Origin: Flavipsychrobacter sp.
Lineage (GTDB): Bacteria > Bacteroidota > Bacteroidia > Chitinophagales > Chitinophagaceae
Direction: 5' to 3'
NCBI GenBank assembly: GCA_017849575.1
Contig: JAFIGV010000019.1
Location: 1 to 64,000 of the forward strand
DNA length: 64,000 nt
Below are positions 4,601 to 23,504 of the stretch, piece after piece. Below the pieces are notes generated by a model. That model did not search any database. It was not told the DNA's origin and worked only from the letters and a program-made list of their open reading frames with translations. Made by a program: the position numbers and the translations under genes. The first letter of the stretch is position 1, and each line of letters opens with the position of its first letter.

Positions 4601-5485
4601 ATGCCCCACACAGAACAATATACAGCGGTAAGCAGCGCCGAAGTCGGCAGGTCTGTTGTGCATTTTATAGCGTTTATGGCCAGAGCCGCCGCTTTTTGCC
4701 TGCGCGCGCTGAAAGGCGGCATAGTGTTCGCCTTTTCGGTTTTTATTCTTCTGTCCTTTTTCTTCTGGTTTTGGAACAGAGGCGGTCAGGGATACTACGA
4801 GTCGGAAATGGTTTGCGCTTATAATAGTCTGCACAAAAAAACTTTTGGAGAAATGGTGCACCGGCTCGATTTGTTGGCGCGATCGGGTTCTGCAGGTCAA
4901 TTGGCCCGGGAGCTGCAAATGAAGCCAGAGGATACGCGGAAAATCGTAGCCCTGGATGCAAGGAATGTGGCGGGAAGCCCTTTGTGGGAGGATATCAACT
5001 CCGAACGGTCGCCCATGTATTTTGTTGCTACAACTACCGACAGGTCTATCTTTCCGGAACTTCAGGAAAAGCTACTGAACTATTTGAATCAAACGCCGTA
5101 TGAAGGCAAACGTATCGCTTTTGAGCAACAGAAAGCTGCTGCGAAAATTGCTGCGTACCGCGACTCAAGGTCACAGATCGATGCTTTGATTTCCGACTTT
5201 GGAGCATCGATAGGCCGTGTAAGGGTCTCTGCCGATTCGAGCTCCGGTTTTGCCAATATCGCCGCGCTTTTTCGCTACAAAGACGAATTGCTCGATAAGA
5301 TGCTGGAAGCCCAGCGTAGCACACTTTACCTGCAGCCGGTTGAAATGATTTACGGATTTGCACCCGCTGATAAGCCTGCGGTGAAGGGAAGGTTGCAGAT
5401 GGTGAAAGGGTTTGCTATCGCCCTGGTGATTGCATGGGGTCTTACGGTGCTCAGGGCGCTTTATCAGTATGGCAGGCAGCATTAA
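4601..5485 (+). CDS. Wzz-like polysaccharide chain-length/co-polymerase membrane protein
   Basis: A 294-residue protein with the layout of Wzz-type co-polymerases: one membrane helix near the N-terminus (about 39-58), a large helical periplasmic domain, and a second helix near the C-terminus (about 269-288). Just before the second helix is a proline-containing segment (APADKPAVKGR), a position that is proline-rich in Wzz proteins. There is no tyrosine kinase domain. It is the first gene of the 4601-16056 operon, fitting a role in setting glycan chain length. Overall sequence resemblance to Wzz is weak, so the assignment rests on topology and context. An internal ATG at codon 26 is an alternative start. 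Confidence 0.6.
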   Translation: MPHTEQYTAVSSAEVGRSVVHFIAFMARAAAFCLRALKGGIVFAFSVFILLSFFFWFWNRGGQGYYESEMVCAYNSLHKKTFGEMVHRLDLLARSGSAGQLARELQMKPEDTRKIVALDARNVAGSPLWEDINSERSPMYFVATTTDRSIFPELQEKLLNYLNQTPYEGKRIAFEQQKAAAKIAAYRDSRSQIDALISDFGASIGRVRVSADSSSGFANIAALFRYKDELLDKMLEAQRSTLYLQPVEMIYGFAPADKPAVKGRLQMVKGFAIALVIAWGLTVLRALYQYGRQH

Positions 5486-6938
5486 GTTACCCCGTGGTCT
5501 GAAACACTCCTTTTGGGGTGTGCTGGATGCAAGTCTGTATCCTGCTATTTACCTCGCGACGATGCCCGCGCTGGTTTCAGGTCTCGGCGCCGTTGCTTTT
5601 GGTTTGTGGATGCTGGTCAATAGTATCGTGGTCACACTGCAATTGTTCAATCTTAATATCGGCGTCACCACGATCAGGTATGTGTCGCAAAGTATGGCTT
5701 CCGCAAAAGACGAAGACACCAATGTGCTGATCAATGCTATTTTTCAAGTCATTACTTTTTTACTTTTCGCAGTGCTGGTAGTAGGGGTGCTGATGGCCTG
5801 GCTGATACCGCAGTTTCATGCGTTGCAGCTAAGCGACGCGCCAGTGCAAAATATCTCGCTGCTTCTTTTTTTATCCGCTGCTTTTGCGGGTTTGAAGTTT
5901 TTCGATCTAGTCTGTAACAGTCTGCTCAAAGCCGCAGAACATTTTCGTGCTGCAGCGATACTGAACACCACCAACCGGTCCGCGCTATTGCTGATCAATG
6001 TCACCATGGCCCGGGCCGGAGCTTCTGTGCAGGACCTCTTGCTGGCGAATCTTGTCTTCGCGGTGGTTTTCATCCTGCTCCAGCTTTATGTACTCAGCCG
6101 AAAGTTCCCGTTCTTCAGTCTGCTTTTTCATCGACAGGTGCATTGGTACCAGCCGCTGATCCGTTTTAGTTTTTTTCCCTGGCTTCAGTTTCTGCTGGTC
6201 ATTCTGGCCTTTCAGACCGACCGCTTGTGGGTAGCACATTATGCCGGTCTTAAAGAACTTTCATCCTACAGTCTTGTGGCTACCATCTTCAACCATGTGC
6301 ACATGATCTTTATTGCCATTGCGGGGTGGATGCTTCCACGGCTGTCGGCTATGACGGCCAGAGGCGAAGACCCTATGCCGCTGTATCAGAATGTTCGGGC
6401 CATGCTCTTATTGCTCAGTACCGGTGCTTTGCTCTGTTTTTTTGCGCTTTATCCCTGTCTGTTGCCGATGTGGATCGGTGCCGGCGTCTTTTCCGGTATT
6501 GCGCCGTATGTCCGGGCTTTTATTGGTTTTGAGCTCGTCTTTATCCATACCATCATGCCCTTCTTTTACCTCAATGCTACCGGTAAGGAACGTCTGGCCA
6601 CCGCTACCACTGCGCTATACGCTGTACCGGCCTATCTGCTCATGGTTGGGGCGATTTATTGGTACCACTCACCTTTGGTCATGGTGCGGGCCATGACGGG
6701 GGGCATTGCAGTCGCGGCACCGATACTTAATTTTATTGTGGATCGGCGCAGCGGAAAGCGTACACAGCTTGTGATGGCTTATTTCGAGCTTCTTCCGTTT
6801 TATCTTGCCATTACAATGCTGTATGTTCCGGGTATATGGCCTAAGGTATTGCTGCTCGTTATCATTGCAGGATTGTTGCTTCAAAACTATCTGCCCGACA
6901 TTCGAAAAACCAAAACATGGAGACAGCAGATAACATAA
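5469..6938 (+). CDS. Polysaccharide flippase, Wzx-like (MOP superfamily)
   Basis: A 489-residue protein with about 12-14 membrane segments. It begins GSIKLPRGLKHSFWGVLDASL, as in O-unit flippases, which start with an amphipathic stretch before the first helix. It should move undecaprenyl-linked repeat units across the inner membrane. I chose the ATG at 5469, which overlaps the preceding gene by 17 bases; an in-frame ATG at 5430 would add 13 residues with no membrane or motif content. Its position between the Wzz-like and Wzy-like genes supports the role. It is distinct from the second flippase at 23831-25330. Confidence 0.85.
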   Translation: MAGSIKLPRGLKHSFWGVLDASLYPAIYLATMPALVSGLGAVAFGLWMLVNSIVVTLQLFNLNIGVTTIRYVSQSMASAKDEDTNVLINAIFQVITFLLFAVLVVGVLMAWLIPQFHALQLSDAPVQNISLLLFLSAAFAGLKFFDLVCNSLLKAAEHFRAAAILNTTNRSALLLINVTMARAGASVQDLLLANLVFAVVFILLQLYVLSRKFPFFSLLFHRQVHWYQPLIRFSFFPWLQFLLVILAFQTDRLWVAHYAGLKELSSYSLVATIFNHVHMIFIAIAGWMLPRLSAMTARGEDPMPLYQNVRAMLLLLSTGALLCFFALYPCLLPMWIGAGVFSGIAPYVRAFIGFELVFIHTIMPFFYLNATGKERLATATTALYAVPAYLLMVGAIYWYHSPLVMVRAMTGGIAVAAPILNFIVDRRSGKRTQLVMAYFELLPFYLAITMLYVPGIWPKVLLLVIIAGLLLQNYLPDIRKTKTWRQQIT

Positions 6939-8170
6939 GACTAAGCTTTTGGCCCGGTGTCTTCACCGTTCTGATGTTTTTCTTCAACCACTTCACCGGT
7001 TTCGAAGGACTAACGTTCAGTTTGTTGCTGTTGCCCGTTTGGGTGTACGTTTGGTACAGAAGTGGATGTTTTCATTGGAGAGCATGGTCGGTTGTAGTGT
7101 TGTTTTTGTCGGGTTATGCGGTCATTCATTTACTTCACGGCATTCACGGCTGGTATTATTTTCGCTCGTCGTTGCTCTTATTGTCCACCTTGCTGTTTGT
7201 CGCTGCAGTGTGTGCGGCTTTCCGCGTCCCATCTTTTCCGGTAGATGCCCTCTTCCGTCAGCTATTGATCCTCAATTTTCTTCTGGTATTGTTTGCGCTC
7301 ATAGCATTGTTGATCCCCTCCCTGAAAAATGTTGTTTGGTACACCATTTCTATTTCAAAGAATATTGAACCTTTTCCTCGTCTGAAAATGTTTACCGAAG
7401 AAGCCTCCCACTACAGTTTTTTGTGGGCCCTCCCGGCTATTTACTTCCTTTCCAAGCTTGCCGTGTTCAAGGTTCGCCGTCCGGCACTTTTATTCGTGAT
7501 GATTCTGCTTCCGTTGTTGCTTTCGTTTTCGCTGGGTGTGCTTACAGTATTGGGTTTTTCCGCTCTTGTGGCAACTTTGCAATTCAGACGTCAGATATTC
7601 CGAACCTCCCATTCGTTGAAAATGCTGCTGCTGTTGGTATCGGCCTGCGTGCTGTTCCTGTTCGTCATTTATCTCGTCTATCCCGGAAATCCCCTGTTTG
7701 TTCGCCTGCATAATGTATTCGCCGGACATGATACCTCTGCCAATGGTCGCACCTATCAGTCGTTTTTACTTGCGCACAAGATCATCGCCCAAAAAAGTCT
7801 GCTGTTTGGTATTGGGCCCGGGCAGCTTAAAGTAGATGGCAGAAATATTATCATTCAATACTACGCCTATACGCACATGCCCGAGGTGGTGCGCATTCCC
7901 AATGCCTGTGCCGACACTATGGTTTGTTTCGGATACACGGGCCTTGTGCTAAGGATCGCCCTGCAGATTGTACTGTTTTTTACAAGTCGTGTTCCCGGCA
8001 GTATCTTTCGGTTTTGGCTGTTTGTTTTTTTGTTCATTTATCAATTTACGGGCAGTTATCTCGGGAATGTAGATGAATATCTGTTGTGGGCGATTTGCTT
8101 TTCACCCATGTTTGATCAGGAGTTTTTGTATCAGGCAACTGTCCGGAAGAAAATACAATCAGGCCCATGA
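6917..8170 (+). CDS. Polytopic membrane protein, probable O-antigen/capsule polymerase (Wzy-like)
   Basis: A 417-residue hydrophobic protein with about ten to twelve predicted membrane helices and a larger outward loop after the middle. That loop includes GHDTSANGRTYQSF and LFGIGPGQLK, typical of the Wzy/WaaL fold, where conserved Arg residues in periplasmic loops act in glycan transfer. Wzy proteins have little sequence conservation, so the call relies on topology, the R-G-G loop and operon position. The start overlaps the flippase gene by 22 bases and the end overlaps the next glycosyltransferase by four (ATGA). Another WaaL/Wzy-like protein lies at 10381-11664; which one polymerises and which ligates cannot be decided from sequence. 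Confidence 0.65.
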   Translation: METADNIRLSFWPGVFTVLMFFFNHFTGFEGLTFSLLLLPVWVYVWYRSGCFHWRAWSVVVLFLSGYAVIHLLHGIHGWYYFRSSLLLLSTLLFVAAVCAAFRVPSFPVDALFRQLLILNFLLVLFALIALLIPSLKNVVWYTISISKNIEPFPRLKMFTEEASHYSFLWALPAIYFLSKLAVFKVRRPALLFVMILLPLLLSFSLGVLTVLGFSALVATLQFRRQIFRTSHSLKMLLLLVSACVLFLFVIYLVYPGNPLFVRLHNVFAGHDTSANGRTYQSFLLAHKIIAQKSLLFGIGPGQLKVDGRNIIIQYYAYTHMPEVVRIPNACADTMVCFGYTGLVLRIALQIVLFFTSRVPGSIFRFWLFVFLFIYQFTGSYLGNVDEYLLWAICFSPMFDQEFLYQATVRKKIQSGP

Positions 8171-10391: not shown

Positions 10392-11664
10392 CAAGACTAT
10401 GCTTTCCACCATCGTTCGTGGGCTATATGTAGTGGCTATGGCAGGACTTCCCTTTCTGGAGTTGTGTCCGTTGAGTACATACAGCTTTATGGTTTTGGGT
10501 GTGGTTTTATTGTTCACCAGAAAGCTTTCGTGGCGCCGGAAAGCGTACCCTGCCGTTTGCTGGTTGCTATTCGCTTATTATCTGCTTCAGGTGGCGGGAT
10601 ATCTGTTTCATCCGTCCGTGGCTACCGGTTTTGCGCTGGAACAGAAGGCAGGCTTATTGTTTTTGCCCCTGCTCATCATTTCTGTGTTTGACTACTCCGA
10701 AGACACTGCGCTATGGGGTTGGAGCGCACTCATAGCAGGAACTGGTGTAGCGGTAGTGGTTTGTTTCCTTTTTGCCGTATTTCATTTCTTCCAGTCGGGG
10801 CTGACCTCGGTGTTTTTTTATCACTCGTTTTCTGCACCCTTGCGCATCAATGCGATTTATCTTTCCCTGTATGTTTTGATCGCACTGCTGGCAACAGGCT
10901 GGTGGTGGCAAAGATGTCGGCCCCGGTATCGAGGCGTCCTCGCTATTATGAGCTTGCTGCTGGGTGCGGCACTGCTGTTGCTGAGTTCCAAGATGATTAT
11001 AGCCGGCGCTGTGGTTGCTGCATTGGGTATTGCTGTATGCACCATGAGTGGCTGGAAAAAGATTGCCCTTTTCGTCTTGACGCTTATCGTGGTTCTCCTG
11101 ACCTTTCTTACTTCCAATCCCCTGCGGCAACGGTATGAGCAAATGAACATACAGCAGGCCCGGGCCGCCTGGCACAGCAGCGACTTCACCAACTTTCCCT
11201 TCGACGACCTGAGCCTGCGTGTAGCTTTGATACGGGTGGGGCTTGAGGTAATGAATTCGGAAAAATCATGGGTAATGGGAAATGGCGGAAGCGACTACCA
11301 CCGGCTGGTTAATGAACGCATGAAGTGCTATGGCTTTTTCGGAGGTAATGCACAAACCGGCGACACAGGTTACATCAATTATGATATGCATAATCAATAT
11401 TTTGAGAGCCTCATACAGTACGGCGTCATTGGATTTGTGTTATTATTTACTATATTAGCTACAAGCCTTTTGGTTGCGTATATCAACCCTACTAACCTGC
11501 TTTTTTTAAGCACCCTTGTCTTTTCCTTCCTGTCGCTATCGGAATCCTTGCTTGAAACGCAATCGGGCCTTTTATTATTCACCTTAACGCTGGTCTATGG
11601 ATGGAAATTTACACGACTGAAGCACTTGCAGAAAGGGGCATCTCTGCTCCGGTGGCAAGCGTAA
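10381..11664 (+). CDS. O-antigen ligase/polymerase family membrane protein (WaaL/Wzy)
   Basis: A 427-residue polytopic membrane protein with about 11-12 helices. The long periplasmic loop after the central helices contains an HNQYFESLIQYGVIGF segment, the characteristic H-N-x-x-x-x-x-x-x-x-G of the Wzy_C/WaaL family, preceded by a GNGGSDY loop. It should join or polymerise lipid-linked glycan on the periplasmic side. An in-frame ATG at 10399 is an alternative start that would remove the 11-base overlap with the previous gene. It is the second protein of this class in the operon (see 6917-8170); this one has the clearer family signature. Confidence 0.82.
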   Translation: MAGNKTMLSTIVRGLYVVAMAGLPFLELCPLSTYSFMVLGVVLLFTRKLSWRRKAYPAVCWLLFAYYLLQVAGYLFHPSVATGFALEQKAGLLFLPLLIISVFDYSEDTALWGWSALIAGTGVAVVVCFLFAVFHFFQSGLTSVFFYHSFSAPLRINAIYLSLYVLIALLATGWWWQRCRPRYRGVLAIMSLLLGAALLLLSSKMIIAGAVVAALGIAVCTMSGWKKIALFVLTLIVVLLTFLTSNPLRQRYEQMNIQQARAAWHSSDFTNFPFDDLSLRVALIRVGLEVMNSEKSWVMGNGGSDYHRLVNERMKCYGFFGGNAQTGDTGYINYDMHNQYFESLIQYGVIGFVLLFTILATSLLVAYINPTNLLFLSTLVFSFLSLSESLLETQSGLLLFTLTLVYGWKFTRLKHLQKGASLLRWQA

Positions 11665-12305
11665 AGCCTGAATTTGTACACAAAAAAAATATCATCCCTT
11701 CCGACTGGCTGTTTTGTTGCTGGAAAAGAGCACTGGACCTGAGCCTTGCCGCGATATTGCTTGTGGGTGTGTGTACATGGCTTATGCCGCTTACCGCTTT
11801 GGCTATCCGAATAGGTTCGCCAGGGCCGGTCTTTTTTATGCAAAAAAGAGTGGGGCGGTATGGGCGAAACTTTATCTGTTATAAGTTTCGCAGCATGTAT
11901 GTCAATGCCGAATCCGACATCAAACAGGCTGCTGCCGATGATGCCCGTATTACGGGACTTGGTGCCCTGCTGCGCCGTACGCATATCGACGAGTTACCCC
12001 AACTGTTTAACATACTGCTGGGCCACATGAGCTTCATCGGACCGCGGCCGCATATGCTGCAGGAAGACAAAGCGTTTGACGCATGCGTTACCGGCTATCA
12101 TCTGCGGCGTCTTGCAAGGCCCGGCCTCTCTGGCTTAGCGCAGGTAAAAGGATATCATGGCTACGCAAAGGATCTGAAAAGCATTGAGGATCGCACCCGG
12201 CTCGATCTTTTCTATCTGAACAAAGCCTCCTTCTTGCTCGACATCAGCATTCTCTTCCATACGCTTCGTAAACCTTTTAAAAAACGCAGCACATGGAGCC
12301 GCTAA
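11601..12305 (+). CDS. Priming sugar transferase (undecaprenyl-phosphate glycosyl-1-phosphate transferase)
   Basis: A 234-residue monotopic phosphoglycosyltransferase (PF02397). Motifs in order: KRALDLSLA and the re-entrant membrane helix, GSPGPVFFMQKRVGR, KFRSM (95-99), the catalytic-site segment RRTHIDELPQ (125-134, Asp-Glu pair), and GPRP (147-150). It transfers a sugar phosphate to undecaprenyl phosphate, the first step in building the repeat unit. It lacks the extra N-terminal membrane domain of WcaJ/WbaP, like minimal PglC-type enzymes. The ATG at 11601 overlaps the previous gene by 64 bases; a GTG at 11652 is a plausible alternative start with a shorter overlap. Confidence 0.93.
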   Translation: MEIYTTEALAERGISAPVASVKPEFVHKKNIIPSDWLFCCWKRALDLSLAAILLVGVCTWLMPLTALAIRIGSPGPVFFMQKRVGRYGRNFICYKFRSMYVNAESDIKQAAADDARITGLGALLRRTHIDELPQLFNILLGHMSFIGPRPHMLQEDKAFDACVTGYHLRRLARPGLSGLAQVKGYHGYAKDLKSIEDRTRLDLFYLNKASFLLDISILFHTLRKPFKKRSTWSR

Positions 12306-13219
12306 CCACAACCGTTGTATTGCACGAAAAGCTGCTTGACGTACTCCGCTACTTTGGCATTTTTCAGTATCCGCTTACACTATCTGAAATAGCCACGCAT
12401 TGCAGTGTGCCCGTGGCGCGGGAAGATGTTGCGGTAGCACTGCAATGGCTTTGTGAGCAGGAGCAGGTTTTCTCCTTCGGGGGATATTTCTCGCGCGATA
12501 AGAATATCGAAGCACAAGTGCACAGGCGGCAGGAAGGCAACAGACTTGCGGCGCAAAGAATCGACGCCGCTGCCCGGACGGGACGATTTCTTTATCAGTT
12601 TCCTTTTGTGCGTTTTGTAGGGATCTCAGGCTCTTTGTCGAAAGGCTTTTCTGTTCCGCGGGGCGATTTCGACTTCTTTATCATCACTGCACACCAAAGG
12701 CTTTGGGTATGCCGAACGTTGCTGCACCTCTTTAAAAAAGTCACCTTTCTGGTCGGCCGGCAACATTGCTTCTGTATGAACTATTTTGTGGACATTGGCC
12801 GTCTGCAACTTGGAGAACAAAATGTATTCACGGCTATTGAGCTTTCCAGCCTCATTCCCGTTGCAGGCTCCGATACCCACGAGTCTCTGTTGCAGGAAAA
12901 TGGCTGGGTAAAATCTTTTCTTCCCAATGAATATCTGCCTTTCTTGTCTGTGCCGGTAAACGACCGAAAGCTTCGCCTGGCCACGGCTTTAGAATTTCTG
13001 CTTTCCTGGTGCGGTGCGGGTATCAACAAAGCTTTGATGCACATGACGGATAAGCGCTGGCGACGCAAATGGAAGAGAAAAAATTATCCGCAGCAAGACT
13101 ACGACCTTGCCTTTAAGACAACCCTTTTTACTTCAAAAAATCACCCGGCCAACTATCAGAAAAAAATCCTTCAGACGCTCCGGCAAGATAGCGCCCGCAA
13201 TAAGAATTTGCCCTTATGA
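12293..13219 (+). CDS. Predicted minimal-nucleotidyltransferase-fold protein with N-terminal winged-helix-like region
   Basis: A 308-residue soluble protein. Residues 105-130 contain the nucleotidyltransferase signature: SGSLSKG (112-118) followed by D125-F-D127, with a third acidic residue in NYFVD (D167). This matches the hG[GS]..DxD..D triad of the pol-beta/MNT superfamily. Residues 15-65 look like a winged-helix domain. A Cys-rich segment (HCFCMNY) and a basic C-terminus follow. It should transfer a nucleotidyl group, but to what is unknown. It overlaps both neighbours (13 bases upstream, ATGA downstream), and together with the next three genes forms an atypical tail to a polysaccharide operon. 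Confidence 0.72.
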   Translation: MEPLTTTVVLHEKLLDVLRYFGIFQYPLTLSEIATHCSVPVAREDVAVALQWLCEQEQVFSFGGYFSRDKNIEAQVHRRQEGNRLAAQRIDAAARTGRFLYQFPFVRFVGISGSLSKGFSVPRGDFDFFIITAHQRLWVCRTLLHLFKKVTFLVGRQHCFCMNYFVDIGRLQLGEQNVFTAIELSSLIPVAGSDTHESLLQENGWVKSFLPNEYLPFLSVPVNDRKLRLATALEFLLSWCGAGINKALMHMTDKRWRRKWKRKNYPQQDYDLAFKTTLFTSKNHPANYQKKILQTLRQDSARNKNLPL

Positions 13220-14691
13220 AAATACTGCTCACGCATACCTGGTTCATGTGTTTCGACCCCAAGCAGCAAAGCATTATGGAGCCCTATGCTCCTTTGGCGA
13301 CCTTGCAGCTTGCGGCAGTGTTGCGGGAAGACGGCCACGAGGTAAAACTTCATGATGTAACCTTCGAGACTTCACCCCAGTCTATAGCGCCAGTGTTAGG
13401 GTTGTGGCAGCCCGAAGTGCTCATTGTTTGCGACGATGGCTTCAACTACCTCAGTAAAATGTGCCTTACCAACATGCGCGAGGCGGGATGGGCCATGTGT
13501 TCGCTGGCCAAAAAGCAGGGGTGTACCGTCGTAGTCTCCTCTTCCGATGCTACTGATCACATTCCGGATTATCTGGATCAGGATGTCGATTATATCGTGT
13601 GGGGCGAGGCCGAACAAACCTTCCGGGAGTTGGTGGCCGCGCTGGCTGTGGGTCAGCCCGATCCGGGGCAAATTGATGGACTGGCGTGGAAGCAGGGAGA
13701 TGGGGTGAAGCGGAGTAGGGCCAGAGCGCTGATGGCCCAACTCGATAGCCTTCCGATGCCCGCATGGGACCTTGCCGATCTGAAAAAATACCAACAGGCA
13801 TGGCGCAACAAGCATGGTTATTTCAGCGTCAACTGTTCTACCACACGCGGTTGCCCCTTCAAGTGTAACTGGTGTGCCAAGCCGATATACGGCAACCGGT
13901 ACCATGCCCGCAGTCCGGAGCATGTGGTGGCTGAGCTTCAGTATCTGATGGAGCAATATGGCTTTGATTATGTCTGGTTTTGCGATGATATTTTCGGTCT
14001 CAAGCCAGGATGGGTGAAACGTTTTGCGGAGCTGCTGCAGGAAAGGAATCTGCGCTTCCGGTTTAAGATACAATCGAGGGCTGACCTGCTGCTTAAGGAC
14101 GAACAGGTAGCGCCGCTTGCGGCTGCAGGCTGCGATATTGTGTGGATGGGTGCAGAAAGCGGTTCGCAAAAAATACTGGACGCGATGGACAAGGGCATTA
14201 CGCTTGAGGAAATCGAAAAGGCCACAAAAGCCCTGCGCGCCCACGGTATCAAGCCAGCATTTTTTCTACAGTTCGGCTATCCCGGCGAGCGGATGGAAGA
14301 TATTCGTGCCACGCTGAACCTGCTGAGCCAACTACAGCCCGAGGAGATCGGCATTTCCGTTTCCTATCCTTTGCCCGGCACACGGTTTTATGAGTCGGTC
14401 AGGGCAGGTATGGGAGAAAAAAGCAACTGGACGGATAGTGACGAATTGCAGTTAATGTTCAGGAACTACTACAGCCCGGCATTTTACAAACAATTACACC
14501 GGCATGTGCACAACCACTTCCGGGTATTACGCACACGGCGACGCCTTGCTGCATTCGGACCTGCAAGAAAAGGTCTGACTGTTTTCTGGCTAAGAAACCT
14601 GTTGCGCTTGCCCTACCATCAGTGGAAAGCTATGCGATCGGGCTGGAGACTTAAAAAACTGGAGCAGCAACATGAAGGATCAGGACAGTAA
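13216..14691 (+). CDS. B12-binding domain radical SAM protein (BchE-like class)
   Basis: A 491-residue enzyme. Residues 1-150 form a cobalamin-binding-like Rossmann domain (YAPLATLQLAAVLREDGHEV, then VDYIVWGEAEQTF). Residues 205-420 form the radical SAM barrel with the CxxxCxxC cluster motif C213-PFK-C217-NW-C220, and SAM-binding segments further on (WMGAESGSQKIL; FLQFGYPGE). Members of this class methylate unactivated carbons or rearrange rings on lipids, antibiotics and tetrapyrroles. The C-terminal 70 residues are basic and may contact the membrane. Substrate unknown. It is coupled to the upstream gene by an ATGA overlap. Confidence 0.92.
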   Translation: MKILLTHTWFMCFDPKQQSIMEPYAPLATLQLAAVLREDGHEVKLHDVTFETSPQSIAPVLGLWQPEVLIVCDDGFNYLSKMCLTNMREAGWAMCSLAKKQGCTVVVSSSDATDHIPDYLDQDVDYIVWGEAEQTFRELVAALAVGQPDPGQIDGLAWKQGDGVKRSRARALMAQLDSLPMPAWDLADLKKYQQAWRNKHGYFSVNCSTTRGCPFKCNWCAKPIYGNRYHARSPEHVVAELQYLMEQYGFDYVWFCDDIFGLKPGWVKRFAELLQERNLRFRFKIQSRADLLLKDEQVAPLAAAGCDIVWMGAESGSQKILDAMDKGITLEEIEKATKALRAHGIKPAFFLQFGYPGERMEDIRATLNLLSQLQPEEIGISVSYPLPGTRFYESVRAGMGEKSNWTDSDELQLMFRNYYSPAFYKQLHRHVHNHFRVLRTRRRLAAFGPARKGLTVFWLRNLLRLPYHQWKAMRSGWRLKKLEQQHEGSGQ

Positions 14692-15514
14692 AGAGCCCTT
14701 GCTGCAGGAAGGCCGTGTTGCTGACGCTTTCTCGCGGCAGTCGGTGATTTTCGACGAGCTCTATACGAACAATGCTATTGCCGCGTGGATGAGAGATAGA
14801 GCACGCGCGGAAGTGATGCGGCATATACAACCGGGCGATAGAATGCTGGAACTAAACTGCGGCACCGGTATGGATACAGTATGGTTTGCAGAGCGGGGTA
14901 TAAAGGTTGTGGCCATAGATAATGCTCCCGGTATGCTGCATCATCTGCAACAAAAACTGCTGGAGCGTCCGGAGCTTGATGTAACGCCAATCCTCTGTTC
15001 TTTCAACCAATTGGATCAACTCGGCGATCAGCAATTTGATTATATATTCTCCAATTTCGGAGGGCTGAATTGTACAGATACTCTGGATGATGTTCTAAAA
15101 CAAGCCGGAAAAATGCTCAGACCGGGAGGACGCATCACGCTGGTGATCATGCCCAAAATTTGTCCCTGGGAGCTCGCTATGGTCTTTAAAGGTTATTTCA
15201 AAACTGCCTTCCGGCGTTTCCGCCGCCACACCGATGCCCATCTGGAAGGCGTGCATTTTTCCTGCTACTATTATGCGCCTTCTTTTGTAAAAAAATCGCT
15301 TGGCCCTGCGTTTGAGCTGCTGACACAAAAAGGCATGGCTTTTTTGATGCCACCGCCCTTCATTGACGGCTTTAAGGAAAAATATCCGGCAAGCTTCCGG
15401 AGATTGCAGAAGGCGGAACTTGCACTCGAGCGCTACTTTCCTTTCAAAAGCTGTTGTGACCACTACCTGATCAGTTTTCAAAAAAAGCCCGCGCCATGCG
15501 CAAAAGACTTGTAA
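14672..15514 (+). CDS. Class I SAM-dependent methyltransferase
   Basis: A 280-residue cytoplasmic enzyme with the seven-strand methyltransferase fold. Motif I is MLELNCGTGMDT (58-69), an acidic residue ends strand 2 (VVAIDNAPGM, Asp83), and FDYIFSNFGGLNC followed by MLRPGGRITLVI match motifs II and III. Small-molecule or lipid methylation is likely; the acceptor is not evident. It overlaps the radical SAM gene by 20 bases and the deaminase gene by 19, so the products are probably made together. Confidence 0.9.
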   Translation: MKDQDSKEPLLQEGRVADAFSRQSVIFDELYTNNAIAAWMRDRARAEVMRHIQPGDRMLELNCGTGMDTVWFAERGIKVVAIDNAPGMLHHLQQKLLERPELDVTPILCSFNQLDQLGDQQFDYIFSNFGGLNCTDTLDDVLKQAGKMLRPGGRITLVIMPKICPWELAMVFKGYFKTAFRRFRRHTDAHLEGVHFSCYYYAPSFVKKSLGPAFELLTQKGMAFLMPPPFIDGFKEKYPASFRRLQKAELALERYFPFKSCCDHYLISFQKKPAPCAKDL

Positions 15515-16056
15515 GAATATGGCTCTGGAGCATGTTGGTGCTCGTGCTGATTGTGGCATCATTACCACTCTGGCACCAGCGGTGTGCCGGACCCCTTGCA
15601 CCCGCTTTGATGCAGCGTATTGAAAGGCTTGGCGACTCCGCGCTTCGGCAGGGCGATGTACCTGTCGCCGCGGTTCTGCTATACGATGGCCAGGTGGTCT
15701 CCGACGGATTCAATGCGGTGGTGGCAACAGGCAATATTGCGGCACATGCAGAGATCGTTGCCGTCAACAACTTCCTGGCAAGGGTTGGTGTGGACTCTTT
15801 TAGAAAATTGGATCATCAGCGCCTGGAATTGATCAGCAGTTGGGAGCCGTGCCCTATGTGTGCCGCTGCATTGGCCGGGCAGGGAATATTGCATGTAACT
15901 GTGTTGCGAAAGAAGCCCTTGCGTTTGCGCTGGCAACAGGAACTGGCGCGCTGGCAACTGCTCAGGAACATGAGATTTTTAAGAGAAGACACCCTACAAC
16001 TACAGCTTTTTCGAAGACACCCCGACTTTCGGAAACAGGATACGGGCCTGTATTGA
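15496..16056 (+). CDS. Membrane-anchored nucleoside deaminase-like protein (TadA/cytidine deaminase fold)
   Basis: A 186-residue protein with two parts. Residues 1-26 (basic MRKRLVR, then IWLWSMLVLVLIVASLPLW) form a signal anchor; by the positive-inside rule the rest would face the periplasm. Residues 36-150 are a zinc deaminase domain: DVPVAAVLL, the HAE motif H84-A-E86, and P118-C119-PM-C122. All zinc ligands and the catalytic Glu are kept. TadA/guanine deaminases are normally cytoplasmic and soluble, so the anchor is odd. It is the last gene of the operon; the function is unknown. Confidence 0.83.
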   Translation: MRKRLVRIWLWSMLVLVLIVASLPLWHQRCAGPLAPALMQRIERLGDSALRQGDVPVAAVLLYDGQVVSDGFNAVVATGNIAAHAEIVAVNNFLARVGVDSFRKLDHQRLELISSWEPCPMCAAALAGQGILHVTVLRKKPLRLRWQQELARWQLLRNMRFLREDTLQLQLFRRHPDFRKQDTGLY

Positions 16057-16064
16057 TAACATGA

Positions 16065-16799
16065 TCAGGGCACAGGCTGGCGAAGATCAAAGCCCGCTTG
16101 TAGCAGACCTTGATACAACCATGGATAATGATCATCACCGGTAAGGATGACTACGCGTTTTCCAATATTATTGCGAAGTACAAGGCTCAGACGATCTAAC
16201 ATTCTTTCATTGCGACGCCTGTAGAAGGTAGTAAGCACGGCATATTCCGTTCCGGCAAAGGCCTTTTCCATGCAATCGTAATACGCACGAACCCATTCAT
16301 GATCTTTGCCCTGAAGTATCATGCGCAAGGAATTGCTGATTAAAAGCTGAAAGCGGATACTGTCCATTACCGAACATGCGCCTAATCGCTTTTGCATCTT
16401 GCTATCGGTGGATAATTTCCTTTGCAGCAGCTTTACAACCGAGCTATCGCGCCAGTAGCCTTTGGGAATCGCTCTTCCTTCCAGCTCTGCCCCAAGCCAG
16501 TCGAAACCCTCAACGCGTACCCCCGGGAGCCAGTATCGTACACTGCGCATCTCAAGCGGATAGTTTGCCGCCAGATAATTACTATCGGCGTTGATGTCTT
16601 CGTTTCTGATTTCTACCAATACAAGATCGGGTTGCAGCCGGTGCAGGCAGGTCTTTAAGCTATCGTAGCTATAAGCACTGTTGGTCTGGTGCAGTGCATG
16701 CAGGGTGGGCAACAGAAAAACCTGACTACGGGCAGAGATGCTGTGCACGAGCAGGAACAACAGCGCCAGCATGCAGCCTCGATATTGTCCGGATAACAT
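16065..16799 (-). CDS. Secreted TraB/GumN-like (TIKI superfamily) protein
   Basis: A 244-residue exported protein with an N-terminal hydrophobic signal (about 10-25). The mature part begins with VFLLPTLHALHQTN (His34), continues with LVLVEIR, and ends with VVILTGDDHYPWLYQGL (His224). This G-x-x-H near the start and G-D-x-H near the end are typical of the TraB/GumN/ChaN-type fold, some of which are metal-dependent hydrolases. Similarity is moderate, so activity is uncertain. It faces the end of the polysaccharide operon, with nine bases between the stops. Confidence 0.6.
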   Translation of the reverse strand: MLSGQYRGCMLALLFLLVHSISARSQVFLLPTLHALHQTNSAYSYDSLKTCLHRLQPDLVLVEIRNEDINADSNYLAANYPLEMRSVRYWLPGVRVEGFDWLGAELEGRAIPKGYWRDSSVVKLLQRKLSTDSKMQKRLGACSVMDSIRFQLLISNSLRMILQGKDHEWVRAYYDCMEKAFAGTEYAVLTTFYRRRNERMLDRLSLVLRNNIGKRVVILTGDDHYPWLYQGLLQAGFDLRQPVP

Positions 16800-18356: not shown

Positions 18357-21300
18357 ATGATTCAACAACTATCTGTGAAAGATTTTTGGAAATCGCCCTG
18401 GACACTACGACCGAAAATTTCCGTGCTGGGAACCGTCATTCTTTTGTGCTGTATGCTAACCGGCTTGCCGGTGTTGGCGCAGCAGCACACTGTAAGCGGT
18501 TTTTCACCAAGTGCGGGCTATGCGGGGGAGACCATTACGATTTCTGGCACCAACTTTAGTAGCATCACCGGGGTGAGCCTGGGTGGCGTGGCGGCGGCTT
18601 CCTACAGTGTGGTATCGCCGACAAAGATTACCGCAGTTATCGCGGCCGGCGCCTCAACGGGTCCGGTGTCTGTCACCAAGTCGGGCGTTTCGACGGCCAC
18701 AGTGAATGCATCAAGCAATCTAAACTATCTGTCGCTGCCTACGGTGACCAGCATTGTAACCGATCACGGAGGATTTTGGAATACCAATACTACAGTGAAC
18801 AATGCCGTTTATCCGGATAGTGCACACAATCTGCTTTCCTTCACCTACGGGGGCATTACCTATTCTACAGGGTTAAAAGACAATACCCTTGTCAATGGAG
18901 GGGTGAGTTACACCCCCGGCAACTGGAAGGCGCTGCCCGCTATACTGTCGGGCAATACCTCCGGCGCAAGCCTTTTTATTGCTACCGGCGCAAAGATGGA
19001 TGGAAACCTCTACAATGGTTTATACACCCATCCTGCCATCAAAGATCTTACGATTCAAAGTGTGCTTTCTGACGGACTTGGAGGTCTGAATCTTGGCTCC
19101 GGGTACACCAACCTTCCCGCCACGGCAACCTCTTCATTTAATATTTACAATGTGGTGCCGGGTAAGATAACGGACAATGAACCCGATATCCTGGTGACGC
19201 AGATTGCGGATCCGCCCTCCGGTACCATCGATATTTACCAGTTTGTAGATGCGAGCAACAATCCTGTGGGTAATTCTATAGCTCAGGACCTGAGTAAAGT
19301 GCCGCCGTTGGGTACATGGTACCTCGATCTGTTTTCGGTGCCCGCAGGTGTGCCTGTGGGTACAGCAAAGCCATCGGCGGTGAGCAGCTCTATGACTACC
19401 CGGAACATCCGGCTGGTTGCCTACCGGCTGTCTGACTTTGGAATTACGGCGTCCAACTATACGCAGATCAAACAGTTTAAGATCACTCCGTCCGGTACCA
19501 GCGATGTGGCATTTGTTGCCTACAATGCCAATGCGATCAATGTGCCTCCGTCTATAACCCAAAATACTACTGCAACCAGCAGTGTCATTTGTGCCTCAGG
19601 CGGTAATGCCTACCTTGCGGTAACTGCGATTTCGGCAGCCGGCGGAACCCTTAGTTATTCCTGGGAAGTATCAACCGACAATGGAAACTCCTGGTATGCA
19701 ATAAGCGATAACAGCACCTACTCAGGCAGTGCCACCGATGCACTTTCTATTACCAATGCTACCTCAGGGCGGCAATACCGGGCAACGGTAACAGAATCCA
19801 TCTCAAACTACAGCTCGAAAAGCTCAGTATTTACAATCACCACCGCAGCCGGATCGGCGCTGGGCGGAACCCTGAATCCCACGGCTACAGTTTCCAATTG
19901 CCTTAATGCAACTACGGGAACAACTTCACTCTCTGTATCACCCACCGGGGGTACAGGCAGCTATAGCTATCAGTGGTTGTCCAGTGCTACCTCCGGCGGC
20001 ACTTATGCGGCCATACCGGGTGCTATATACAGCAGCTATAGCTTTCCGCTGAGCACAGCAGGTACTACCTACTATAAAGTGCAAGTCCTGAGCGGGTGTT
20101 ACAGCAACACGTCTTCTGCCTCAGCAGTTACCCTCTCGGGAGAAAGTATCACGGGTGTCACCAATGGTGTTGTATGTGCTCCCGGGTCGGTTACACTGGG
20201 TGCTGCCGCCACGGGTGGAACGATCAACTGGTATGCTACCAACAACTCGGGCACGGTATTGCAAACTGGCAACAGCTATTCACCTACGGTTTCGGCTTCT
20301 ACCACCTATTTCGTAAGCGTCACTTCCGGGGGCTGTACCTCCGCGCGGGTGCCGGTAACTGCTACAGTGGCTAATAACATCACTATTGACAGCAGCAACA
20401 CGCGCATTACCTATGCCACCGATGTCTGCTCAGGCTCGGCATCAAATGTGGTAGTGGCCACTACTGCCCTTGCCAATGGAACCTATACCGTAACCTATGA
20501 TGTCAGTGGGGCCAATACGATTACGAACGGCACGGCAACCATGACCGTGAGTGGCGGAAACGGAAGCTTTTCCACCGCGGCACTCAATAACGTAGGCAGC
20601 AATTTGCTGAAGATTGTGTCGGTGACTTTAAATAGCTGTACGGTTACAGCATCGAATGCAAATAGTTATCCGGTGGTGGTAAACAGTGGTGCACCAGATG
20701 CCAGTAACTTTTCTATTTCGGTAGGCAATGGCTGCTCCAATGCCAATGCCACCGCTACGATTTCCAGCACGACACTCGCCTCCGGCAATTATACCGTCAA
20801 TTATTATGTAACCGGAGATAACTCGGTTGCTGTGACAAGTGCACCGGTGGTGTTCACGGCGGGAAACCCGGGTACAGGAACCTTTCAACTGCCACTACTG
20901 GGAAATGCGGGGAGCAATAACACGCTCACCATCACGACAGTGGCGCTGACCAGCTCGCCAGCCTGTGCCGCTACACTCAATCAAAGCAGCAATAGCTTTA
21001 CGAACAGCATCCTTCCTGTGGTGGACGCCGGATCGCCGCGCACCATGTGCGCCAGTGCTGTATCCATCACCCTCGGTCCTGGTGCCGATGCCAGCAATTA
21101 TGACGCGCTGACCTGGAGTACCAGCGATGGTACCGGAAGTTTTTCCAACAACACTACCGCTGACGCACTGACTACGGCAGCCTATACACCCAGCGCGGCG
21201 GATATCTCTGCCGGCAGCAGATTGTTGACCCTTACCGCAACAGGCAGTACAGGATGTGCCAATGTTGCGCAAACCGTATCCCTGACCATTAAGAGCGGAT

Positions 21301-23504
21301 ACATCTGGTACGGTACCACCAGCAGCAACTGGAATACCGCTTCCAACTGGCAGTGCAATGATGTGCCTACTCCTGGTGCTAACGTTACTATTGTAGCCAG
21401 CCCGCCCCATCAACCTCAGATACAGAATGATGTGGAGGTAGGCAATATCGTATTTGGCAGTAACAGCTATGTAGATCTGAACGGAAGCGAATTCAAAATC
21501 AGCGGCGCAATAACGGGTACCCCAACGTTCAAGTCCACGAGTACCTCGTCACTGGTATTTAGCGGTACCAACAACGCTACCTACTATTTTGCGAGTGGCA
21601 GTGGTAACAATAACATCGGCAACCTCACGGTAAACGCCCCGGGGGTAACCATCACTCAGGGCGCAGACACCATGATTGTGCATGGTACCGTGTCGGTAAC
21701 AGCCGGCGTGCTGAACCTGAGCGCCAAAAATGTACGCCTGAAATCGGTGGCCGCTTATACCGCACGAATAGCAAGGATAACAGGCGCAATTGTCAATGGA
21801 TCAAACCTCACGGTTGAGCGCTTTGTCCCCGCAAAGCCCGGACGCAGATGGAGCTCCATGGCTTGTCCGGTAAATGCTTTGCTGAGTACAAGCTGGCAAC
21901 AGGATATTCATATTACCGGTCCGGGAACCGGTGGAACAGCCTGCAACAGCTACGCAACCAATATGCAACCGGGCACGTACACCAATGGCTTTGATGCCAC
22001 GCAGACCAACGCCAATTCATTTTATTATTATGCCAACAATAGCTGGGTAGCGATACCGAACACCAACAGCACCAATCTGGCACCCGGTGTGGGATACTAT
22101 GTAAACGTGCGCGGTGACCGCAATACTTATGGCTGCCAGTTGCTGCAATACACCAATTCACAAACCGGAGGGGTGCCGACCTATGATGCTACAGTAAAAG
22201 CAACAGGAGCACTCACCAAGGGAAATGTGACCGTAAATGCCACCAATACAGGCTACTGGTTTTTAGGAAATCCTTATCCCTGCGAAATAGACTTCAATAG
22301 TTTTTATGCCGAGAACAGCGCCAACATTTCACAGATGTACTGGCTTTATGATCCGGCCAATATTAGCGGCAACTATATGACGTGGGACGGCACTAATTAT
22401 GCCGGAGCCGCTGCAGGATATACGAACCATGAGCTAATAGCTTCAGGTCAGGGATTCTTTGTAAATATCACCACCACGGGCAGCCTTACCTTCCGTGAGA
22501 GCCACAAGTCTTCTACGTATCAGTCGGGCGGGTTCAAAACGACTACCAGCAATGATAAAATCCGTATCAACATCTACAAAGCGGGAGATACGTTGAAACA
22601 GGATGATGCACTGGTGGTTTTCGACCGGGACAGCCTGAGCGCGAATACGGCATTGACCGCTTTCGATGCAAAAACACTGAATGCAGGCGATGTGTGGGTG
22701 GCTACGATGAAAGGCGCTGATAAACTGGCCATTCAAAAACGATATGAAAGTTATGCACACGATACGGTGGATGTATTTGCCTATGTAGCCAATGCGGGCA
22801 ATTACAGTTTTGACTTTACCGACATCAGTCTTGCAGGTACGGTTTATCTGCAGGATAATCTCACAAATACGATGCAGGACCTGGCTGTCAACCCTCAGTA
22901 TGCTTTTAGCGTAGCCGCAGCAGGAAATGTACAAAACCGTTTTCGTCTGCTTTTCGACAACAACAGTCCGCTGGCAAGAGAAGAAGTAGTACTTACAGGT
23001 TATAGCCACGATGCCCGCGCGCACCTCAACTGGCACCCTGCCACACCGGGCAACTACACACGCTATTCGGTACAGTCTTCAGATGATGGCACCGTATTCC
23101 AAAGCATAGAGACGATGGCTGCGCATAATGAGCAGGCCGACAATCAATACTACTATACCGATGCTACGGAGCTGACCGGTAAGACCCGCTTCTACCGTGT
23201 AAAGGCCATACGGCCCGACGGAAGTGCTGCCTATTCGCACGTGCTGGCTTTGGGAATTAACACCGCTCCGGTTGCTGCATTCAGGATGTATCCGAATCCG
23301 GTATCCGACGAACTGCATGTAAGTTTTTCCGGAGACGTGGGCCATGGATATATCCGGATCATTAGCTCTTCTGGCGTACAACTCGTGCGGGTTGCTCATT
23401 CCGGAGCAGACCTCAGTATCAACACGAAGCAGCTTCCGCGTGGAGCCTACATCGTAGAAGTGACCGGCGACGGATTTCGACAAACACAACCATTAATCAA
23501 ATAA
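18357..23504 (+). CDS. Giant T9SS-secreted adhesin-like protein (IPT/TIG and Ig-like domains)
   Basis: A 1715-residue surface protein. The long n-region is followed by a hydrophobic signal ending GLPVLAQQ (about 24-43). Residues 45-111 form an IPT/TIG domain (HTVSGFSPSAGYAGETITI). Several Ser/Thr/Asn-rich Ig-like modules follow (about 400-970), including two tandem copies of about 110 residues with the pattern LANGTYTVTYDVSG / LASGNYTVNYYVTG. From about 980 (IWYGTTSSNWNTASNW) there is a beta-helical section. The last 75 residues, from FRMYPNPVSDEL, form a T9SS type A sorting domain. No catalytic site is seen. The start codon sits against a hairpin, and the next gene is 21 bases downstream. 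Confidence 0.9.
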   Translation: MIQQLSVKDFWKSPWTLRPKISVLGTVILLCCMLTGLPVLAQQHTVSGFSPSAGYAGETITISGTNFSSITGVSLGGVAAASYSVVSPTKITAVIAAGASTGPVSVTKSGVSTATVNASSNLNYLSLPTVTSIVTDHGGFWNTNTTVNNAVYPDSAHNLLSFTYGGITYSTGLKDNTLVNGGVSYTPGNWKALPAILSGNTSGASLFIATGAKMDGNLYNGLYTHPAIKDLTIQSVLSDGLGGLNLGSGYTNLPATATSSFNIYNVVPGKITDNEPDILVTQIADPPSGTIDIYQFVDASNNPVGNSIAQDLSKVPPLGTWYLDLFSVPAGVPVGTAKPSAVSSSMTTRNIRLVAYRLSDFGITASNYTQIKQFKITPSGTSDVAFVAYNANAINVPPSITQNTTATSSVICASGGNAYLAVTAISAAGGTLSYSWEVSTDNGNSWYAISDNSTYSGSATDALSITNATSGRQYRATVTESISNYSSKSSVFTITTAAGSALGGTLNPTATVSNCLNATTGTTSLSVSPTGGTGSYSYQWLSSATSGGTYAAIPGAIYSSYSFPLSTAGTTYYKVQVLSGCYSNTSSASAVTLSGESITGVTNGVVCAPGSVTLGAAATGGTINWYATNNSGTVLQTGNSYSPTVSASTTYFVSVTSGGCTSARVPVTATVANNITIDSSNTRITYATDVCSGSASNVVVATTALANGTYTVTYDVSGANTITNGTATMTVSGGNGSFSTAALNNVGSNLLKIVSVTLNSCTVTASNANSYPVVVNSGAPDASNFSISVGNGCSNANATATISSTTLASGNYTVNYYVTGDNSVAVTSAPVVFTAGNPGTGTFQLPLLGNAGSNNTLTITTVALTSSPACAATLNQSSNSFTNSILPVVDAGSPRTMCASAVSITLGPGADASNYDALTWSTSDGTGSFSNNTTADALTTAAYTPSAADISAGSRLLTLTATGSTGCANVAQTVSLTIKSGYIWYGTTSSNWNTASNWQCNDVPTPGANVTIVASPPHQPQIQNDVEVGNIVFGSNSYVDLNGSEFKISGAITGTPTFKSTSTSSLVFSGTNNATYYFASGSGNNNIGNLTVNAPGVTITQGADTMIVHGTVSVTAGVLNLSAKNVRLKSVAAYTARIARITGAIVNGSNLTVERFVPAKPGRRWSSMACPVNALLSTSWQQDIHITGPGTGGTACNSYATNMQPGTYTNGFDATQTNANSFYYYANNSWVAIPNTNSTNLAPGVGYYVNVRGDRNTYGCQLLQYTNSQTGGVPTYDATVKATGALTKGNVTVNATNTGYWFLGNPYPCEIDFNSFYAENSANISQMYWLYDPANISGNYMTWDGTNYAGAAAGYTNHELIASGQGFFVNITTTGSLTFRESHKSSTYQSGGFKTTTSNDKIRINIYKAGDTLKQDDALVVFDRDSLSANTALTAFDAKTLNAGDVWVATMKGADKLAIQKRYESYAHDTVDVFAYVANAGNYSFDFTDISLAGTVYLQDNLTNTMQDLAVNPQYAFSVAAAGNVQNRFRLLFDNNSPLAREEVVLTGYSHDARAHLNWHPATPGNYTRYSVQSSDDGTVFQSIETMAAHNEQADNQYYYTDATELTGKTRFYRVKAIRPDGSAAYSHVLALGINTAPVAAFRMYPNPVSDELHVSFSGDVGHGYIRIISSSGVQLVRVAHSGADLSINTKQLPRGAYIVEVTGDGFRQTQPLIK

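Follow-up and report, generated by a model that had tools for sequence, protein, structure and literature searches.

What work is done by a nucleotidyltransferase, a radical S-adenosylmethionine (SAM) enzyme, a methyltransferase and a deaminase that are encoded together at the end of a polysaccharide operon? The question is raised by a stretch of 64,000 nucleotides from Flavipsychrobacter sp. (assembly GCA_017849575.1, contig JAFIGV010000019.1, positions 1-64,000 of the forward strand), referred to here as the window. The final classic polysaccharide gene of the operon encodes a polyprenyl-phosphate sugar-phosphate, or priming, transferase (PST; 11601-12305, on the plus strand, as are the four genes that follow it and their motifs), whose catalytic region matches TIGR03025 with a score of 255.8 bits and so stays short of the curated cut-off (295.55). 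It is followed by the genes for a winged-helix and MNT/AadA-type nucleotidyltransferase of an unnamed family (NT; 12293-13219, 308 amino acids), a cobalamin-dependent radical SAM enzyme (RS; 13216-14691, 491 amino acids), a class I SAM methyltransferase (MT; 14672-15514, 280 amino acids) and, as an optional fourth component, a membrane-anchored zinc deaminase of the TadA/CDA superfamily (DA; 15496-16056, 186 amino acids). The initial annotation placed these four as overlapping open reading frames behind the priming transferase, and so they are found, with overlaps of 4, 20 and 19 bases in addition to the 13 bases shared by PST and NT. The operon appears to end at DA, because the next gene is convergent. 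The answer to which we incline, with moderate confidence, is that in Bacteroidota NT, RS and MT form a conserved module for cobalamin-radical tailoring in the biosynthesis of surface glycans, to which DA is an occasional, late-acting addition. The genes are linked, their motifs are intact, their folds are recognizable and they lie in a glycan context; together they look like an undescribed tailoring set of surface-glycan clusters.

The case for a module begins with co-occurrence. In a sample of 299 genomes from 140 genera of the order, NT is found in 41 genomes (28 genera), RS in 43 (30 genera) and MT in 39 (26 genera). NT and RS occur together in 40 genomes and RS and MT in 38, with Fisher values, calculated without regard to shared ancestry, of 5.9e-45 and 1.9e-41, respectively. 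When present on the same contig, NT and RS are no more than 10 kb apart in 34 of 35 cases, and RS and MT in all 35. Both NT and RS are also present in four genomes (G236, G276, G284 and G301) where they are more than 20 kb apart or on separate contigs, which argues for a functional association and not for mere linkage. Retrieval by RS alone gave 80 loci, of which 76 also contain the MT cluster and 69 that of NT, and every one of the 18 loci retrieved across the phylum by an NT profile contains a relative of RS. RS distances track those of MT (r 0.70), and in one genome the two enzymes are naturally fused into a single protein of 727 residues (L149:7740-9923). The initial annotation had regarded all four genes as one system, an idea that would fail if MT and DA were mainly solitary elsewhere. 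That outcome is not what was observed: MT accompanies RS in 38 of the 39 genomes that encode it and is fused to it once, and six of the seven genomes with a convincing DA relative have it in this system or in a related cluster. The one-system claim is supported for NT, RS and MT, whose co-occurrence is near-perfect and whose glycan partners vary, and has to be relaxed for DA, which is an optional addition.

The second line of evidence is the company that these genes keep. At least one glycosyltransferase-like cluster is present in 54 of the 56 loci with full flanks, a raw, uncorrected share. Pfam was used to check the main glycan clusters, and the rest were assigned from similarity or on inspection by eye. 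Genes for a priming transferase, a Wzy-like polymerase, GT4 enzymes and ABC flippase-like proteins recur around the module, and NT distances track those of Wzy and GT4b (r ~0.9). Distant loci have different glycan genes, including GT87, GT9, GT4 and a fusion of MT to a C-terminal domain that weakly resembles GT29 sialyltransferases (L150:8749-10452; 20.5 bits versus a cut-off of 23), and the module is therefore constant while its glycan partners change. The expectation that the families would stay together within 10 kb as the glycan genes differ is thus borne out for NT, RS and MT.

Several observations weigh against this interpretation. Most of the sampled genomes do not have the module, the Fisher values are uncorrected for phylogeny, and the share of loci with glycosyltransferases is, as stated, a raw one. 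Two distant NT-RS pairs (L145 and L155) have no neighbor that resembles the known glycan clusters. Finally, NT distances correlate only weakly with RS distances (r 0.46), from which it follows that the pair has reassorted.

The loci also harbor a larger version of the cluster, found in Mucilaginibacter and its relatives and exemplified by L062:1488-13287. Around RS, MT and NT, this version adds a second cobalamin radical SAM enzyme of 500 amino acids, a SPASM radical SAM enzyme and more methyltransferases, together with a TRZ/ATZ-like amidohydrolase, two GT4 enzymes and an ABC transporter of the PglK/MsbA type. We know of no product of these larger clusters. The amidohydrolase, of the TRZ/ATZ-cytosine-deaminase type, is present in 35 of the 56 full-flank loci. 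A search of the window's genome for the second cobalamin radical SAM gene of these clusters gave no match other than RS itself. In another arrangement, seen in five loci (L042, L053, L117, L136 and L137), a second RS-like radical SAM gene, whose product is ~30-34% identical to RS, lies directly behind MT.

Such enzyme-rich loci invite a different explanation, in which the module makes a small, diffusible specialized metabolite, whether a nucleoside, an aminoglycoside-like compound or a lipid, with enzymes of natural-product tailoring that adjoin or borrow glycan genes. Many loci combine an ABC exporter and several methyltransferases with two or three radical SAM enzymes, some of the distant ones show only NT and RS (L145 and L155), and RS resembles OxsB and AprD4, which belong to the oxetanocin and apramycin pathways. 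However, genes for the priming transferase, the Wzy-like protein, GT4 and the flippase recur, NT distances follow those of Wzy and GT4b, and in the window the four genes share one overlapping operon with PST. We regard the metabolite explanation as unlikely, though it deserves to be taken seriously, and continue with the glycan-tailoring module.

The identity of RS as a B12 radical SAM enzyme, proposed at the outset, is well founded. It matches the Pfam Radical_SAM family at 83.8 bits, and the cysteines of its [4Fe-4S] motif, CPFKCNWC (C213, C217 and C220; 13852-13875), are invariant in an alignment of 27 homologues with a mean column identity of 70%. The predicted structure (AF2; pLDDT 81.4) has the fold of a cobalamin enzyme over nearly its whole length: residues 1-489 align with residues 118-651 of OxsB (Z 25.3 over 443 residues), residues 1-483 align with AprD4 (Z 25.2), and MgmA and TsrM come next in a set that spans Z 23-25. 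RS is accordingly predicted, from its modeled fold, to be a full-length cobalamin radical SAM enzyme that includes the cobalamin-binding domain; the domain is assigned from the fold because the match to the Pfam B12-binding family, at 22.7 bits, is below the cut-off of 32.1.

MT is, as first described, a class I methyltransferase. It matches Methyltransf_25 (55.3 bits) as well as Methyltransf_11, Methyltransf_12 and UbiE, and within its glycine-rich motif I, ELNCGTGMD, the residues E60, N62, G64, T65, G66 and D68 are invariant. A PADLOC match to mad2 (73 bits) is confined to the methyltransferase domain. A tRNA cmo5U methyltransferase (8joz) is among its closest solved relatives, and this, with TadA and Tad2 among the best solved relatives of DA and an alignment of RS with MiaB and RimO at Z ~19, would fit a set that modifies tRNA or another RNA, in which NT would be joined by a radical SAM enzyme of the MiaB/RimO kind, a methyltransferase like CmoM and a deaminase like TadA. 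Yet OxsB, AprD4, MgmA and TsrM all fit RS better, DA is membrane-anchored, the context is one of glycan synthesis, and the distribution is patchy, unlike that of housekeeping tRNA modification. RNA modification consequently appears to us highly improbable.

NT is the least familiar of the proteins. No family in Pfam, NCBIfam, PHROGs or PADLOC matches it above cut-off, no match was found in a plasmid collection, and by sequence its best hit among solved structures has an E value of 0.24, with the rest worse. Its assignment as an MNT-type nucleotidyltransferase is nonetheless upheld by catalytic residues that are conserved across 45 homologues and by its predicted fold. The motif G113-S114-x(10)-D125-x-D127 (12629-12673), with a third aspartate at D167 (12791-12793), conforms to the pol-beta-type (MNT/KNTase) signature of hG[GS]-x(9-13)-Dx[DE] and a third acidic residue. 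In the 45-member alignment, S112, G113, S114, D125 and D127 are invariant, and D167 is conserved in at least 90% of members. The AF2 model (pLDDT 91.5) finds MntA (7bxo) as its best nucleotidyltransferase match, at a weak Foldseek E value of 0.016, followed by weak matches to AadA and ANT(4'') at 0.18-0.37.

The N terminus of NT forms a winged-helix domain (residues 1-71; 12293-12505), in which approximately residues 4-72 resemble many winged-helix domains with VIA Z scores of ~9-10.7; the match to the Pfam IclR helix-turn-helix family, at 14.2 bits, falls short of the cut-off of 22. Since the VIA list for NT consists entirely of winged-helix domains, it is silent, for or against, on nucleotidyltransferase relatives. 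With such a domain, at Z ~10, and with distances that follow the polysaccharide genes more than RS and MT, NT could be an IclR-like regulator of the operon and not a pathway enzyme, leaving the chemistry to RS and MT alone. A pure regulator, however, would have no need of the catalytic acidic residues and GS motif that are kept in 45 diverse members, and we judge this role for NT to be very unlikely. The other role that was considered, as the antitoxin of an MNT-HEPN toxin-antitoxin pair, was dropped because there is no HEPN partner gene; NT adjoins the genes for PST and RS in the window, and in related loci its neighbors are RS or genes of glycan synthesis.

The initial annotation also described DA as an anchored zinc deaminase, and it has the corresponding features. 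It matches dCMP_cyt_deam_1 (PF00383) at 47.5 bits and contains an HAE motif (residues 84-86; 15745-15753) and a PCPMC zinc motif (residues 118-122; 15847-15861); H84, A85, E86, E117, P118, C119 and C122 are invariant in the five aligned members. It does not reach the cut-off of the TadA equivalog NF008113, against which it scores 47.1 bits where 150 are required, and a conserved C-terminal Q-x(2)-LF-x(2)-HP marks a separate subfamily. A single hydrophobic N-terminal helix (residues 5-23; 15508-15564; KD19 2.34), of a kind that is absent from NT, RS and MT, has a similar counterpart in all five relatives that were checked. The further suggestion, that DA may act at or even beyond the membrane, finds no consistent support as regards the far side: the charge bias at the helix points outward in the window protein and in G564 but inward in G431, with G070 ambiguous.

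DA is rare. A search with its own sequence finds it in 3 of the order's 299 genomes, each time following MT, and a family profile finds it in 7 of 316 genomes across the phylum. The order NT-RS-MT-DA is identical in four lineages, represented by the window genome, G070 and G265 (one genus), G564 and G431, a set that includes two genera outside the class. In a fifth lineage, G560, DA is flanked on one side by a double GT4 and on the other by two radical SAM genes akin to those of the larger clusters, with NT and RS on a different contig. DA thus sits in the NT-RS-MT system or a related cluster in six of the seven genomes with a convincing relative, and it is an optional part that belongs with this kind of system and not a core member. 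The TRZ/ATZ-type amidohydrolase was found in none of the six DA genomes, in a search that had no positive control and is only suggestive; it is possible that the two enzymes are functional replacements for each other. The remaining relative, in G458 (L163:8280-8837), is located apart from the module and has HAV in place of HAE, a change that suggests it probably has no deaminase activity. A small MNT/HEPN-like gene pair, recognized by eye, is found ~2 kb away from it. A match in G583 was not counted as evidence for the family, as it is the TadA-like part of a 284-residue protein with a remainder that appears NUDIX-like by eye.

Elsewhere in the window, three more operon genes (4601-8170) encode membrane proteins that by eye are Wzz-like, flippase-like and ligase/polymerase-like and have no Pfam match; in L050, L124 and L125 their relatives are found in the company of the GT4 and NT genes. 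The six congeners have neither NT nor the flippase gene of this operon, which is therefore an accessory feature of the genus. The convergent gene directly past DA (16065-16799, minus strand) encodes 244 residues with no Pfam family at E 1e-5, and a protein of 1715 residues with repeats and an apparent C-terminal sorting domain is encoded at 18357-23504.

As to mechanism, NT would transfer a nucleotidyl group from an NTP to a sugar or lipid-carrier intermediate, at one of its hydroxyl or phosphate groups. Using cobalamin and a 5'-deoxyadenosyl radical, RS would methylate an unreactive carbon of the intermediate or remodel it in some other way, and MT would add an ordinary methyl group. The product would join the polymer or its carrier, and DA, held at the membrane, would act on it by hydrolysis, at the exocyclic amine of a group that resembles a nucleobase or is some other amino-heterocycle. 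For the product envisaged earlier, whether a modified lipid or glycan carrier or a nucleotide sugar of an unusual kind, the link to glycans is supported; the product itself and its chemistry stay conjectural. By analogy with fosfomycin, a transient nucleotidylation that precedes radical methylation is plausible. A fuller version, in which nucleotidylation of the sugar or carrier intermediate by NT provides a handle for C-methylation by RS and a deaminase then acts on an amino-heterocycle, seems rather unlikely to us; in that version the deaminase would be the membrane-anchored, TadA-like DA here, and in the larger clusters perhaps an unrelated amidohydrolase of the TRZ/ATZ type.

Most known examples of cobalamin radical SAM enzymes come from antibiotic, hopanoid and chlorophyll pathways. 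Searches of open-licence papers for radical SAM enzymes in connection with exopolysaccharides, capsules or Bacteroidetes turned up nothing relevant. That a set so widespread in the phylum and so tightly linked goes with genes for surface polysaccharides points to radical chemistry that acts on the glycans of bacteria or on the carriers of these glycans. The set includes a nucleotidyltransferase family that is unnamed in the profile libraries searched, and it poses the question of whether the substrate of the radical SAM enzyme is nucleotidylated or not.

How, then, does the module compare with known systems? The closest solved folds over nearly the whole of RS are those of OxsB and AprD4, enzymes that act on nucleotide and aminosugar substrates; RS is, however, only 17-21% identical to them and scores 81.5 against the AprD4 equivalog cut-off of 500. 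We know of no link from either enzyme to polysaccharide operons or to nucleotidyltransferases of the MNT type. By sequence, the best NCBIfam matches of RS include BchE (137.7 bits versus a curated cut-off of 481), HpnJ (120 versus 577.6), the "ladder" family TIGR04072 (119 versus 360) and HpnR (92.4 versus 650), and with every cut-off missed widely the chlorophyll, hopanoid and ladderane readings were dropped. The core of NT is closest by fold, with weak matches, to MntA and the AadA/ANT aminoglycoside nucleotidyltransferases and has the GS...DxD...D motif, but differs in its N-terminal winged helix, its C-terminal helical region and the missing HEPN partner. DA shares the HAE and EPCxxC zinc motifs of TadA and the guanosine and cytosine deaminases, whose chains it matches, but is set apart by its membrane helix, its C-terminal motif and its low TadA score. 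In fosfomycin biosynthesis, the substrate that Fom3 methylates is 2-hydroxyethylphosphonate in its cytidylylated form, from which FomD afterwards removes the CMP (PMC8158854). The context here, in contrast, is polysaccharide, with no phosphonate context seen and no FomD-like gene identified. The cytidylyltransferase of Fom1 belongs, as far as we know, to a different family from NT. What the two have in common, as a functional resemblance and with no claim of membership, is the pairing of nucleotidyl transfer with a cobalamin radical SAM methyltransferase in a single pathway.

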